Of a DNA stretch of 64,000 bases, positions 25,549 to 30,302 are shown piece after piece. The position numbers were made by a program, and so were the translations under genes. The stretch covers positions 602,523-666,522 of the forward strand of contig NZ_KV700385.1 of the NCBI RefSeq assembly GCF_001687305.1. The letters run 5' to 3'. Numbering within the stretch: the stretch's first letter is position 1; the number at the start of each line of letters is the position of its first letter. The notes beneath the pieces are model-generated. The model saw only the letters and a list, made by a program, of their open reading frames with translations, was not told where the DNA came from and searched no databases. Origin of the DNA: Actinomyces vulturis (GTDB lineage: Bacteria; Actinomycetota; Actinomycetes; Actinomycetales; Actinomycetaceae).

Positions 25549-26856
25549 GTGGTTAGCAATTCGCAGCCCGTCAAAGGAAACAGGCTCGATCCATGGCTGG
25601 ATAGTTACGCCGCTAGGGCCCGTGGGCTGCGCGCTTCAGAAACCCGCTCACTCTTTGCTGTAGCGTCCCGTCCTGAAGTTGTTTCTCTGGCCGGTGGCAT
25701 GCCTAACCTTAAAGATTTGCCGCTCACTGAGATTGCACAAGCAACCGAACGAATGCTTCGGCGTAACGGTGCCAGCGCATTACAATATGGCAACGGTCAG
25801 GGACTTCCGCTGCTCCGCGATCTGATTCCCCACGTCATGGCCATGGAAGGCATTCACGCCCATGCCGACGATATTGTCGTCACTACTGGTAGTCAGCAAG
25901 CTGTGGACCTGCTGACAGAAGTTTTTATCGATCCTGGCGATGTAATCCTCGCTGAAGCACCTACTTATGTAGGAAGCCTGGGCATCTTTAACGCTTATGA
26001 GGCTGATGTTCACCATGTCCCACTTGATGCCGATGGTCTGATTCCTCAGGCTCTTGAAGAAACCATCCAACGGCTTAAAAGAGAAGGGAAACGGGTTAAG
26101 TTCCTCTATACCCTTCCCAACTTCCACAACCCTGCTGGGGTGTGCATGAGCGAAGAACGGCGTCCACAAATCGTTGATATTTGCGATCGTCACCGCGTGT
26201 TAATTGTTGAAGACAATCCCTATGGTTTGCTTTCTTTTGAGGGTCGTACCTATACCGCGTTAAAGGATCTCAATCCCGACGGTGTGGTCTATCTTGGCTC
26301 CTTTTCCAAAATCTTTGCTCCTGGATACCGTGTGGGCTGGGCAGTGGCGCCTCCTGCAGTAAAGGAAAAAATAAAGTTAGCCTCTGAAGCAGCCATTTTG
26401 TGCCCATCATCCATGGGGCAATACTCCATCGCGATGTACCTCAACGAGTTCGACTGGAAAGCCCAAATTGAAGCTTTCCGAGTCATGTACAAAGAACGCC
26501 GTGATGCCATGATTGGAGCGCTCAACGAGTACCTGCCCTACTGCTCATGGAATACCCCGACTGGCGGTTTCTACACCTGGGTGGGATTACCCGAGGGCCT
26601 TGATGCCCACGAAATGTTACCCCGGGCTATTACCAATCTCGTGGCCTACGTATCAGGTACAGCTTTCTACGCTGACGACCAAGGTCATGACCATATGCGA
26701 CTGTCGTTCTGCTATCCGGAACCTGCCGAAATTCATGAAGGCATTCGACGATTAGCAGAGGTTGTTGATGCGGAGCGTGATCTTGTCAGAATTTTTGGAC
26801 CCGCACATCATCCTTCTCCTACGGGGATTCAACGACCACAACCAGATCAAATCTAA
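25549..26856 (+). CDS. PLP-dependent class I/II aminotransferase
   Basis: A 435-residue fold-type I aminotransferase. The PLP-binding lysine is K254 in GSFSKIFAPGYRVGW. Other cofactor contacts are N194 in NFHNPAG and D222 with Y225 in EDNPYG. The family includes LysN-type 2-aminoadipate and multisubstrate aromatic/branched-chain aminotransferases, and the substrate cannot be assigned. No MocR-type DNA-binding domain is present. GTG start at 25549 with GAAAGGA upstream. An aminotransferase at this place beside parB is common in Actinomyces relatives. Confidence 0.88.
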   Translation: MVSNSQPVKGNRLDPWLDSYAARARGLRASETRSLFAVASRPEVVSLAGGMPNLKDLPLTEIAQATERMLRRNGASALQYGNGQGLPLLRDLIPHVMAMEGIHAHADDIVVTTGSQQAVDLLTEVFIDPGDVILAEAPTYVGSLGIFNAYEADVHHVPLDADGLIPQALEETIQRLKREGKRVKFLYTLPNFHNPAGVCMSEERRPQIVDICDRHRVLIVEDNPYGLLSFEGRTYTALKDLNPDGVVYLGSFSKIFAPGYRVGWAVAPPAVKEKIKLASEAAILCPSSMGQYSIAMYLNEFDWKAQIEAFRVMYKERRDAMIGALNEYLPYCSWNTPTGGFYTWVGLPEGLDAHEMLPRAITNLVAYVSGTAFYADDQGHDHMRLSFCYPEPAEIHEGIRRLAEVVDAERDLVRIFGPAHHPSPTGIQRPQPDQI

Positions 26857-26941
26857 CAATACATTAGTTCATTACTACAGAATTCGTTCTAATTACTCAC
26901 TCATACCATCCACCTATTCCGACTCACCACGGGAAGCCATC

Positions 26942-27922
26942 ATGTCACGACTCAACGACGTTCTTTCAACGATCACCGTTGATCCTACGCCTCTTACCAT
27001 TGCCGTCATTGCGGGCGGATGGGATCACGAACGCGATATTTCATTGCGCTCGGGAAACCGTGTTGCTCAAGTATTACGCGACTGTGGACACACTGTTCAC
27101 ATCCTCGATGTGGATTCCGACATGATTCCCCGCCTCAAAGAGATTTCTCCCGACGTGGTGTGGCCGCTTGTTCACGGTGGCACAGGTGAAGATGGCAGTT
27201 TGCAAAATATTCTCATCGCGCTCGGTCTTCCCTACGTTGGTACTCATTCTGATGGTTGCCAACTTGCCAGTTTTAAACCCACCTCGAAGGCTATGGTCCG
27301 TACTGCTGGCGTTCTCACACCTGATTCACTGACCTTACCTAAGACATTCTTTGCTCAACTTGGTGCACGTACCGTCCTTGACGTGGTGTGTGAGCACCTT
27401 CAACTTCCGGTAGTAGTCAAGCCATTCCAAGGTGGTTCTGCGCTTGGCGTGTCAATGGCCAATAATGAAGAAACGCTGCGTACAGCTATGGTTGAGTGTT
27501 TTTCTTACGCTCCTGACGCCTTGATTGAATGCATGGTTGACGGCACTGAAGTAGCGGTTTCTGTCGTTGATCTTGGTAACGGGCCTATCGCGCTGGATCC
27601 CGTCGAAATCGTTACTGATGGTAACTATGATTTTGACGCCCGCTACAACCCGGGTCGCTCGGAATATTTCACCCCTGCACGTCTGGATGAAAGCACCACG
27701 GCAAAGGTCTGCGAAATGGCTGAACGTGTTCATCGAGCACTTGGGCTAGGCACATTCTCACGTACTGACATTATTGTTGATCATGACGGAACACCATGGT
27801 TCATTGATCTCAATGTCACCCCAGGAATGACCGAAACTTCTCTATTCCCGATCGCTGCTGCAGTGACAGGTAAACTCCCCGACCTATACAACGCAATGGT
27901 ACATGCGCCTTTAGCGAGTTAA
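26942..27922 (+). CDS. D-alanine-D-alanine ligase family (ATP-grasp)
   Basis: A 326-residue ATP-grasp ligase. The N-terminal IAVIAGGWDHERDISLRSG and HGGTGEDGSLQ match Ddl, as do KPFQGGSALGVSMA (nucleotide binding) and the end DLNVTPGMTETSLFP. Ddl makes the D-Ala-D-Ala dipeptide for peptidoglycan. The protein is somewhat short and diverged, so a Ddl-like ligase with another amino-acid substrate is possible. The reading frame is open for 60 codons upstream, but that part has no conserved feature; the ATG at 26942 starts the domain. It is convergent with parB, with a parS palindrome between them. Confidence 0.82.
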   Translation: MSRLNDVLSTITVDPTPLTIAVIAGGWDHERDISLRSGNRVAQVLRDCGHTVHILDVDSDMIPRLKEISPDVVWPLVHGGTGEDGSLQNILIALGLPYVGTHSDGCQLASFKPTSKAMVRTAGVLTPDSLTLPKTFFAQLGARTVLDVVCEHLQLPVVVKPFQGGSALGVSMANNEETLRTAMVECFSYAPDALIECMVDGTEVAVSVVDLGNGPIALDPVEIVTDGNYDFDARYNPGRSEYFTPARLDESTTAKVCEMAERVHRALGLGTFSRTDIIVDHDGTPWFIDLNVTPGMTETSLFPIAAAVTGKLPDLYNAMVHAPLAS

Positions 27923-27955: not shown

Positions 27956-28013
27956 TCTATAGACAATTGGCGGTTATGTTTCACGTGAAACATAACCGCC
28001 AATTGTCTATAGA
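27956..28013. promoter_or_regulatory. parS: parS site at the centre of a 58-bp perfect palindrome
   Basis: The 16-bp parS sequence TGTTTCACGTGAAACA occupies 27977-27992. The symmetry does not stop there: 27956-27984 is the exact reverse complement of 27985-28013, 29 bases on each arm. As RNA this would fold into a very stable hairpin able to end transcription from either side, although no T-run follows. As DNA it is a ParB-CTP loading site and a potential cruciform. It sits between the convergent ddl and parB genes. Confidence 0.93.
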
Positions 28014-28101: not shown

Positions 28102-29397
28102 TTACTGTTCATCGACGATAAGACCGGGCTGTAAACTCGCAATCAAGCGCTGTAAATCATCATCACCAGCAAACTCAATAACGATTTTACCTTTCTTTAC
28201 ACCCTTAGTGACCTTCACTCGAGTATCAAAAATATTAGACAGTTCTTGAGACAAGCGCTGAAGAACAGCGGACTTTGCACGCGGCCGTGATACTGGAGTA
28301 TCAAGCGGATCATCGTGCAGTGCCACAAGTTCTTCTGTAGCACGTACTGAAAGTCCCTCGGCAACAATTCGTTGAGTTAACTTTTCCATCGATGCGGGAT
28401 CCGGCAAACCAAGAAGTGCGCGAGCGTGACCTGCACTAATGACACCGGCCGCTAAACGACGCTGCACTGTCGGGGGTAATTTCATTAAACGGAGCGTATT
28501 GGAGATTTGAGAACGAGACCGTGCAATACGTTCAGACAGTTCAACGTGAGTGCACCCAAAGTCATCAAGAAGTTGCTGATATGCCGCCGCTTCTTCCAGG
28601 GGATTGAGAGCAACACGATGAAGATTTTCTAACAATGCATCACGTAGAAGCTCCGAATCATCAGTATGACGAACAACTGCCGGAATTGTATCTAAACCGG
28701 CTAACTTGGTTGCACGAAGACGCCGCTCACCCATAATGAGTTCATAATGAGGCGCTTCTTCTGTTGAGTCGAGAGCTCGTCGAACAACAATCGGTTGAAG
28801 GAGTCCAACTTCTTTAATCGAGGCTGAAAGTTCTTCAATGTCATCATCATCAAATACTTCACGGGGTTGACGTGGATTAGGGTCAATTGTCCCAACACTG
28901 AGTTCCGCGAAGGTTGCACCCGGAACAGGTATAAGATCATCATTTGTCGTGATCCCTGTTTCACGTGAAACACTACCGGGTTGGTTAACAAAGTCCCGAT
29001 CAGCCCTCTTGGGCAATGAGGAAGGTGCATCAACATCAATGTCACGATCTGATGCTTGAGGAACGCTCCGAAGTGTTTCACGTGAAACACTTTCACGTTC
29101 AGCACCAACAGCATCCGTTAAATCACCTAATGTTTCACGTGAAACACCAAGCGATCCTTCATCACCCTTATTCTTACTACCCCCTTTTGAAGAACTGGTT
29201 GACGCCGTTCTCTTCTTAGATGACTTGCGAATCGTAGGAGCCATCAATGTCTCAGAAAGATCAGAATGCTGTCGATTTAACGAGGTTCCATTTTGGGAGG
29301 GAAAAAAGACGTCAGTGGGGCGTCCACCTGTTTCCTTTTGTGTATCGGGGATAAGAGCGGACAATCCACGACCAAGCCCACGACGTTTCTCTACCAT
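28102..29397 (-). CDS. parB: Chromosome-partitioning protein ParB
   Basis: A 431-residue ParB/Spo0J CTPase. It begins VEKRRGLGRGLSALIP, the segment that stimulates ParA ATPase. A long disorder-like region (20-150) follows, containing VSRET three times (85-89, 104-108, 143-147), then the ParB/Srx domain with GERRLRA, a helix-turn-helix core (HVELSERIARSRSQISNTLRLMKLP) and the C-terminal dimer domain. I use the ATG at 29397 with GAGGAG 8 nt upstream; GTG at 29400 overlaps the parA stop. Each VSRET is a parS site read in frame. The variable linker is longer than in most ParB proteins. Confidence 0.95.
   Translation of the reverse strand: MVEKRRGLGRGLSALIPDTQKETGGRPTDVFFPSQNGTSLNRQHSDLSETLMAPTIRKSSKKRTASTSSSKGGSKNKGDEGSLGVSRETLGDLTDAVGAERESVSRETLRSVPQASDRDIDVDAPSSLPKRADRDFVNQPGSVSRETGITTNDDLIPVPGATFAELSVGTIDPNPRQPREVFDDDDIEELSASIKEVGLLQPIVVRRALDSTEEAPHYELIMGERRLRATKLAGLDTIPAVVRHTDDSELLRDALLENLHRVALNPLEEAAAYQQLLDDFGCTHVELSERIARSRSQISNTLRLMKLPPTVQRRLAAGVISAGHARALLGLPDPASMEKLTQRIVAEGLSVRATEELVALHDDPLDTPVSRPRAKSAVLQRLSQELSNIFDTRVKVTKGVKKGKIVIEFAGDDDLQRLIASLQPGLIVDEQ
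28957..28972. promoter_or_regulatory. parS: parS site inside parB (copy 1)
   Basis: TGTTTCACGTGAAACA, a perfect copy of the bacterial parS palindrome. It lies within parB codons for VSRET at residues 143-147. ParB should load here as a clamp and spread. Confidence 0.93.
29074..29089. promoter_or_regulatory. parS: parS site inside parB (copy 2)
   Basis: A perfect 16-bp parS, extended to a 22-bp palindrome at 29071-29092. It encodes VSRET at ParB residues 104-108. Confidence 0.93.
29131..29146. promoter_or_regulatory. parS: parS site inside parB (copy 3)
   Basis: A perfect 16-bp parS at the codons for VSRET, ParB residues 85-89. Copies 2 and 3 start 57 bp apart, and copies 1 and 2 start 117 bp apart. 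Confidence 0.93.
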
Positions 29398-30302
29398 CAC
29401 TTATTCTCCTCAAGGTTTGCAGACGATACTCCGCGTAACGCAACTTCTAGGGCAAGTTCTCGATAAGCAACCGCACCAGTAGAACGTGGGTCAAAATAAA
29501 TCACCGGACTACCAAACGATGGCGCTTCAGCAATACGCACCGAACGGGGAATTTTTGTGTGAAGAGTTGCTTCAGGAAAGTATTGACGTACTTCATTCTC
29601 AACTTCGCGCGCAAGAGTAGTACGCCGGTCAAACATCGTTAGCACAATCATTGACACACTCAACGCAGGGTTGTGAATGGCTGCTATACGATCAATAGAT
29701 CGTGTCAACAAAGCCAAGCCTTCAAGAGCGTAGTACTCCGCTTGCATAGGAATAAGCACTTCACCGGCGGCAACAAAAGCATTAATCGTCATAATGCCAA
29801 GCGATGGAGGACAGTCAATAATGACATAATCCATCCGTGGCAGCCCTTCTCGTGAACGATGAAGAAGATACTCCCTCAGCGCCAAACGCAGACGAGATTC
29901 ACGCTCTGATACGTCAATCAAATCAATTTCTAAGGCAGCAAGGTCAATCGTCGCAGGTACACAACTGAGATGTTCTGAAAAAGGTGTTTTCTGTATGACG
30001 TCAGCAAGAGTACGCCCTTCAACAAGCACATCAAACAGACTCATCGTGCCTTCGCTGTGATCCACACCCAGTGCTGTAGAAGCGTTACCTTGAGAATCAG
30101 CATCAATGAGAAGAACTTCTTGCCCTGCTTGAGCCAAAGCAGCCGCAACATTTACAGCAGAAGAAGTCTTACCCACGCCGCCTTTTTGATTAGCGACAGC
30201 AATGACCCTGGTTTGATCGGGATGAGGGAAAGTATCTTCATGAAGCTCACGCAATTTAGCGTGGTCTGCTTGAAGCTGGTCAAATATTGACGATCCGGGC
30301 AC
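29397..30302 (-). CDS. parA: Chromosome-partitioning ATPase ParA (Soj)
   Basis: A 301-residue deviant-Walker ATPase. The Walker A motif is KGGVGKTSS (40-48), with the signature lysine, and later IIDCPPSLGIMTINAF. It binds DNA when ATP-bound and moves ParB-parS complexes. The N-terminal 30 residues before the ATPase are poorly conserved. GTG start at 30302 with GGAGGAG 6 nt upstream. It overlaps parB by up to 4 bp, so the two are translated as a unit. Confidence 0.96.
   Translation of the reverse strand: MPGSSIFDQLQADHAKLRELHEDTFPHPDQTRVIAVANQKGGVGKTSSAVNVAAALAQAGQEVLLIDADSQGNASTALGVDHSEGTMSLFDVLVEGRTLADVIQKTPFSEHLSCVPATIDLAALEIDLIDVSERESRLRLALREYLLHRSREGLPRMDYVIIDCPPSLGIMTINAFVAAGEVLIPMQAEYYALEGLALLTRSIDRIAAIHNPALSVSMIVLTMFDRRTTLAREVENEVRQYFPEATLHTKIPRSVRIAEAPSFGSPVIYFDPRSTGAVAYRELALEVALRGVSSANLEENK

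Follow-up and report, generated by a model that had tools for sequence, protein, structure and literature searches.

The question raised by the locus considered here is why a 16-bp parS site in the genome of Actinomyces vulturis is extended into a far longer palindrome, and why this palindrome follows the ends of two convergent genes; the whole stretch of DNA analysed, 64,000 nucleotides in length, is referred to as the window. The palindrome occupies positions 27956-28013, and its two arms (27956-27984 and 27985-28013, 29 nt each) are 100% complementary without any spacer. The core at its centre, located by pattern matching at 27977-27992, is a perfect TGTTTCACGTGAAACA; in the test for a chromosomal parS, the 16-bp TGTTNCACGTGAAACA was matched perfectly at these positions. 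The left outer arm (27956-27976), which extends 21 nt past parS and in relatives carries other letters with pairing retained, pairs with the right outer arm (27993-28013), both delimited by inverted-repeat search. By chance, 21 extra paired positions on each side of parS would be expected with a probability of about 4^-21. The outer arms are AT-rich, with G or C at 8 of 21 positions as counted by eye. Among the 15 inverted repeats of the window with arms of at least 16 nt and at most 60 nt apart, this one has the longest arms, and the inverted-repeat and parS searches thus confirm the perfect 58-bp palindrome centred on parS that a preliminary description had reported.

The palindrome lies in a gap of 179 bp between the stop codon of a ddl-like gene of the D-alanine--D-alanine ligase family (26762..27922, plus strand, a listed open reading frame whose true start is probably later), ending at 27922, and that of parB (28102..29400, minus strand), starting at 28102. 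The ddl-like protein finds D-Ala-D-Ala ligase subfamily models as its top NCBIfam matches, with 238.8 bits against a cut-off of 243, whereas ParB scores well above the TIGR00180 cut-off (184.8 versus 58.45 bits). Upstream of parB and in the same direction follows a gene for a parA-like ATPase (29397..30302, minus strand), whose ParA/MinD family matches are below cut-off among the 25 best shown; the genes preceding parA and parB on the minus strand are presumably rsmG and jag. Being the sole strong inverted repeat in the gap, the palindrome is placed to serve both facing genes. It had been described as lying exactly between ddl and parB, which is right as to the convergent gap and loose as to the distances, since it starts 33 nt past ddl and 88 nt past parB.

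The window contains four parS matches (up to three mismatches allowed), all of them perfect, against a mean of 0.33 in shuffled sequence, and the whole 2.2-Mb genome in 10 contigs likewise has four, all perfect, when one mismatch is allowed. All four lie inside 1.2 kb, three within parB and one in the gap past its 3′ end, and are thus clustered beside parAB. The second (28957..28972), third (29074..29089) and fourth (29131..29146) are located within parB and have arms of 8, 11 and 8 nt, respectively. Read by eye, the ParB linker contains the motif VSRET three times, as the parS core translated in frame at the three internal sites. With a perfect 16-bp consensus beside parA and parB, the site resembles the chromosomal parS of ParABS systems; in contrast to most surveyed parS, which lose their symmetry 7-11 nt from the centre, it reaches 29 nt and follows two gene ends.

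As RNA, the palindrome is predicted to fold into one long hairpin on each strand, with -44.8 and -50.3 kcal/mol and z of about -11, and none of 200 shuffles folded equally well. A stable hairpin shortly after the gene, as expected of an intrinsic terminator, is thus present. A U-tract past the stem was not found at the window copy, where the next 10 nt hold one T in the sense of ddl and four in the sense of parB, and a scan for consensus terminators called none at the palindrome. Membership of a known RNA family was considered and rejected, the 14 Rfam matches at E ≤ 1 all being under the gathering score and mostly eukaryotic microRNA hairpins. The element resembles bidirectional intrinsic terminators in that a single long hairpin is placed to serve two facing genes and in that stems change in compensated pairs (compare PMC5381666). 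It differs from them in that its loop and the top of its stem consist of a centromere site and that A- and U-tracts are missing at the window copy. In sequence, it also resembles a class of transcript ends known from high-GC Actinomycetota, U-poor hairpins of I-shaped or Rho-linked type, which combine a strong stem with few U after it (PMC8269248 and PMC12207403). For S. clavuligerus, 353 of 535 structured transcript ends are given as U-poor (PMC8269248), and 3-4 U in 10 nt are given for Streptomyces terminators mapped by Term-seq (PMC12207403); the extended copies of Streptomyces-like genomes discussed below, with 1.7-1.9 T in the 10 nt past the hairpin, fall below this value.

How widespread the extension is can be seen from the relatives. 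In a comparison of 80 loci collected by ParB similarity, the eight best named ParB relatives were all Actinomyces. An extended parS palindrome is found shortly past parB in Actinomyces urogenitalis (27-nt arms), Actinomyces sp. MP_MU_2_bin.69 (18 nt with one mismatch), Corynebacterium dentalis (16 nt), and Bifidobacterium pluvialisilvae and B. catulorum, whose 17-nt arms occupy the same locus coordinate with different sequence (L005, L006, L066, L032 and L036, respectively). Winkia neuii (L017, 22 nt) and Isoptericola (L013, 21 nt) carry extended parS at other positions. At the level of the family, the parS pattern with two mismatches allowed was present in 198 of 200 genomes, and a ParB match likewise in 198. 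Up to 10 kb around parB were taken from 120 genomes, which together with the window gave 121 loci; L185 was excluded for want of a parB match, and the 120 loci with usable parB contain 686 parS cores, most of them with arms of 7-11 nt. Perfect arms of at least 15 nt occurred at 20 of 241 parS in the gap after parB and at none of the 121 within parB coding sequence, the counts elsewhere being 4/63 beyond the gap, 8/251 upstream and 0/10 among unclassed sites. Of all spacer-free perfect palindromes with arms of at least 14 nt in this 1.18 Mb of sequence, 40 of 47 are centred on parS.

The extension is a lineage-specific trait, because among the 51 loci with parS in the gap after parB, 32 have none extended to at least 14 nt. 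The outcome that the preliminary description had named as adverse, a loss of symmetry outside the core in relatives, therefore applies to these 32 loci, while the other 19 keep the extension. On the ParB tree (20 rows with the trait), 11 gains or losses are needed on the best tree, 7 of which are forced by well supported branches. In an alignment of 24 extended family sites the central 14 bp are invariant, the sites having been found by that core, and the arms vary widely in sequence and length between lineages. Both-side changes were counted in 17 of 24 pairs of alignment A1, with a score of 0.525 against 0.142 for shuffled data, a value biased by the fact that the A1 sites had been picked for symmetry. 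Several other arrangements were encountered along the way. L214 and L229 have parB-coding parS with 14-nt arms, and in L206, an AT-rich relative, three parS located about 2.5-3.0 kb upstream of the parB end have perfect arms measuring 14, 17 and 22 nt. In L126, L128, L135, L138, L139 and L141-L145, arrays of 8-15 parS, most of them unextended, are spread over 3.4-4.6 kb between parB and ddl, and L121 has 10 parS within 928 bp of the same interval. In the array intervals of L121, L126, L139, L140 and L143 our script called no open reading frames; the same script missed parB in L121.

Within the gap, the extension depends on the distance to a gene end. With the distance taken from the parS centre and extension defined as at least 14 nt with mismatches scored, the extension is found at 20 of the 75 gap parS that lie no farther than 150 nt from a gene end, compared with 5 of 166 at greater distances (p = 1.4 × 10^-7, kinship ignored). 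For gap parS outside all open reading frames of at least 100 codons, the figures are 13 of 41 near and 1 of 78 far (p = 2.4 × 10^-6, kinship ignored), and the single extended site among 78 counts against a plain mutation bias. Counted by locus, at least one extended site is present in 16 of 45 loci with a near site and in 3 of 32 with a far site. In four loci of one genus (L202, L212, L213 and L224) the gap contains two extended parS hairpins with a shorter parS between them; the hairpin on the parB side is centred 35-46 nt past the stop of parB and the one on the ddl side 48-49 nt past that of ddl. Past each hairpin, 3-6 of 10 nt are T in the sense of the adjacent gene, and among relatives of one genus such tails have 3-7 T of 10.

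The same gene ends often carry other hairpins. The best hairpin within about 170 nt of the ddl end (105 loci) was centred on parS in 13 loci, overlapped parS in 12, abutted it in 5, was separate from it in 40 and absent in 35; at the parB end (120 loci) the corresponding numbers were 14, 3, 6, 54 and 43, short and imperfect stems being included in the parS-centred counts. Strong hairpins without parS occur in the ddl-parB gap elsewhere, for example in L119, L134, L172, L173, L184 and L201. Another hairpin was absent rather than present in a ratio of 12:7 where parS is extended and of 4:28 where it is not (p = 3.6 × 10^-4), a count that after kinship correction comes down to 2-3 informative pairs. 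In nine loci (L122, L123, L127, L130, L131, L140, L222, L225 and L232) parS starts 0-2 nt past an ordinary hairpin, and where it follows the hairpin directly, as in L122, L131, L222, L225 and L232, its own TGTTTC or GTTTC stands at the position that a U-tract would take.

Beyond the family, a covariance model made from 24 family sites matched 45 of 394 genomes of the class (E of 1e-7, the genome of the window counted) and, at E of 1e-6, 42 of 396 genomes of the order and 11 of 396 of the phylum, in samples that overlap and each count the window's genome. Twenty of 29 class loci (the window's own left out, L240 with a GC content of 0.55 retained) are convergent, and nine lie 7-43 nt past the stop of the first gene in a co-directional pair; no locus is divergent or within an open reading frame. 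From 33 further loci, 15 new high-GC resolved ones were obtained (7 convergent, 7 co-directional, one inside an open reading frame in L330, none divergent) after dropping 7 loci of low GC content whose two neighbours had been called (4 convergent, 3 co-directional), 9 for which a neighbour was missing from the calls, and L331 and L332, in which the largest palindromes duplicate those of L260 and L239. Across the class, order and phylum loci, 44 extended sites had both neighbours called, and none of these is flanked by divergent genes; L317 and L319, two of the 9 loci just named, where only the right-hand neighbour was called and points away, were left out of the 44. The neighbours in this, the Streptomyces-like and the hairpin comparisons were called by a base-composition script that recovers the known parB 3′ end in 58 of 72 loci above 60% GC and in 6 of 48 below, so that a neighbour may go undetected and calls at low GC carry little weight. 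In L315, which comes from an assembly of 270 contigs, the perfect arms of one parS (centre 1524) reach about 60 nt, which may be an assembly fold-back.

Treating the class-wide sites as independent was rejected, as 47 of 63 loci fall into three kin groups by their flanking proteins. The 63 loci form 19 such groups, and of the 10 with a resolved high-GC member six are convergent, four co-directional and none divergent. The first large group (15 loci) is situated at the 3′ end of parB, the parB flank being found by BLAST in 14 of 15, and has a relative of ddl, a relative of trxA or something else on the other side. The second, also of 15 loci, has flanks that we take to be jag and rsmG in two loci inspected and rsmG and parA in L306, where the parA flank was found by BLAST; the third comprises 17 loci of a Streptomyces-like genus, whose adjoining gene, read by eye, is presumably CCA-nucleotidyltransferase-like. 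The class search thus meets the element repeatedly, mostly at three recurrent homes, one of which is the parB 3′ end.

A control within genomes was provided by two Streptomyces-like genomes, from which all 21 parS core sites of one and 36 of 43 of the other were taken. Eight of the 10 extended sites are convergent and two co-directional, while the 47 other parS are divided into 12 convergent, 27 co-directional, 4 divergent and 4 inside genes; convergent placement thus differs (8/10 versus 12/47, p = 0.002). Since ordinary parS also prefer gaps and avoid divergent ones (4/47), what the extension adds is a preference for convergent ends. The best hairpin of convergent gaps had a median score of 23.4 where parS is in the hairpin (n = 8) and of 10.4 where parS is missing (n = 9), and the strong hairpins of these two genomes therefore track parS and not gene ends in general.

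Orthologues of the Streptomyces-like gap were collected with mostly coding queries of 1 kb, so as to avoid choosing sites for their symmetry, each search matching 121 genomes and contributing its best 30 loci; the two query stretches turned out to be one orthologous gap, and removal of 3 duplicates left 57 gaps. Exactly two parS, one beside each gene end, are present in 53 of them, with both extended in 27, one in 24 and none in 2. The query stretches contained the palindromes, and the query sites account for two of the 53 gaps. The twin centres are a median of 45 nt apart; in 52 gaps, the outer edges stand at a median of 10.5 nt from one stop (range -28 to 74) and of 10 nt from the other (range -33 to 91). 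At offsets 9-16, outside the core, the arms pair in 72-94% of the 53 gaps, compared with 33-74% after shuffling, although the gain is small at some offsets (79 versus 74%, for example); past an offset of about 20 pairing approaches the background. Most outer-arm positions show several pair types, and several positions have all four across 53 species. Covariation of the outer arms, which the preliminary description had proposed as the supporting result, was thus obtained at this orthologous set, where pairing exceeds that of shuffles while the letters change.

The spacer-free perfect symmetry with like arms could also be of purely mutational origin. Template switching yields perfect spacer-free palindromes with like arms, and copying one flank of parS to the other in this way would need no selection if the products survive only after genes, where they are harmless. 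The parB-coding sites with 14-nt arms in L214 and L229, judged above chance, agree with such an origin; on the other hand, it does not lead one to expect that sites outside long open reading frames and farther than 150 nt from a gene end show the extension just once in 78, that twin sites hug both stops in 52 orthologous gaps, or that T-rich tails follow in gene sense in one genus. The occurrence of all four pair types across 53 species also speaks against it, even if steady copying between the arms could yield the same pattern, and we consider this origin unlikely. A bias of the outer 5′ arms towards G (146 G to 64 C in parS-centred hairpins versus 567 to 515 where these gene ends carry a hairpin separate from parS, with G at 0.72, 0.71 and 0.60 at offsets 12-14 of the class and order extended sites) would agree with a dyad acting as DNA, bound by a second symmetric protein or by ParB in an extended contact via the G-rich arms. 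Arm sequence and length differ widely between lineages, however, and closeness to gene 3′ ends is unexpected for a site acting on DNA only, which makes a DNA-level dyad quite improbable.

There are precedents for parS within signals of gene expression: ParB of Pseudomonas aeruginosa acts at intergenic parS3 and parS4 to repress neighbour genes (PMC7022226), and a parS is found at a promoter upstream of gidB in Mycobacterium bovis BCG (PMC2346475). These parS are at promoters, whereas that of the window is at gene 3′ ends. A description of parS within terminators was not found in the open-access literature searched, among the matches listed, including PMC7022226, PMC2346475 and PMC8743542. KorB, a ParB-family protein, silences genes as a clamp (PMC11790492). 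Clamp silencing by KorB and repression at parS3 and parS4 lend some plausibility to a block in which RNA polymerase arriving from either gene would be halted by ParB clamps and the hairpin would be of secondary importance. Outer-arm pairing would then be left unexplained, and most of the 686 cores, with arms of 7-11 nt, do without it, so that we regard such a block as very improbable. A perfect 58-bp palindrome might in principle also extrude as the cruciform at the centromere that had been suggested at the outset, and regulate ParB loading or replication. Convergent gaps accumulate positive supercoils, which oppose extrusion; no extended site out of 44 resolved lies between divergent genes, and extrusion would take apart the duplex parS, all of which renders this suggestion extremely improbable.

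The element of the window is thus probably of dual use, with parS supplying the loop and the top of the stem in a hairpin where convergent ddl and parB both end. The second role that the preliminary description ascribed to the extension is supported in part, in that the extension is recurrent, is kept as its letters change and is concentrated near gene 3′ ends, which is what one would predict for a terminator or another hairpin of transcript ends, and is qualified by the lineage-specific occurrence of the extension and by the missing U-tract at the window copy and, on average, at the Streptomyces-like copies. On DNA, parS would load ParB clamps as any parS does, while RNA polymerase arriving from either side would produce two transcripts that fold into the same long hairpin. 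This hairpin may help transcription to end, either by intrinsic termination with few U or with the aid of Rho, and shield the transcript 3′ ends; intrinsic, Rho-linked and purely protective action may all be compatible with the window hairpin. It can be rationalized that only matched outer arms would be needed to make a gene-end hairpin, because parS is already a perfect dyad, and conversely a palindromic terminator could become parS by gaining one 8-nt half-site; both routes together would explain the repeated origin. The hairpin forms only after both arms have been copied, such that the geometry gives parS no shield from transcription and polymerase would be halted just past parS. Reading the element as a gene-end hairpin leaves two observations without account, namely the excess of G in the outer 5′ arms and the low hairpin scores of the 9 parS-free convergent gaps in two Streptomyces-like genomes.

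As a tentative and rather unlikely extension of this reading, the parB message of many Actinomycetota might end in a hairpin around a ParB loading site, such that ParB occupancy and the passage or release of polymerase interact, parB has a feedback at its own terminator, centromere loading is coupled to transcription, and the parB 3′ end becomes a preferred home of a combined centromere and terminator. If the dual use holds true, some bacterial centromere sites would double as gene-end signals, which would help to account for where parS sit and would offer a cheap evolutionary route to make or move them, either from a terminator with a half-site or from a parS after a gene by matching its flanks. 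Furthermore, encounters between ParB clamps and RNA polymerase would become testable at natural sites, with extension-free orthologues as controls, and deleting or moving such a parS would also change transcript ends.
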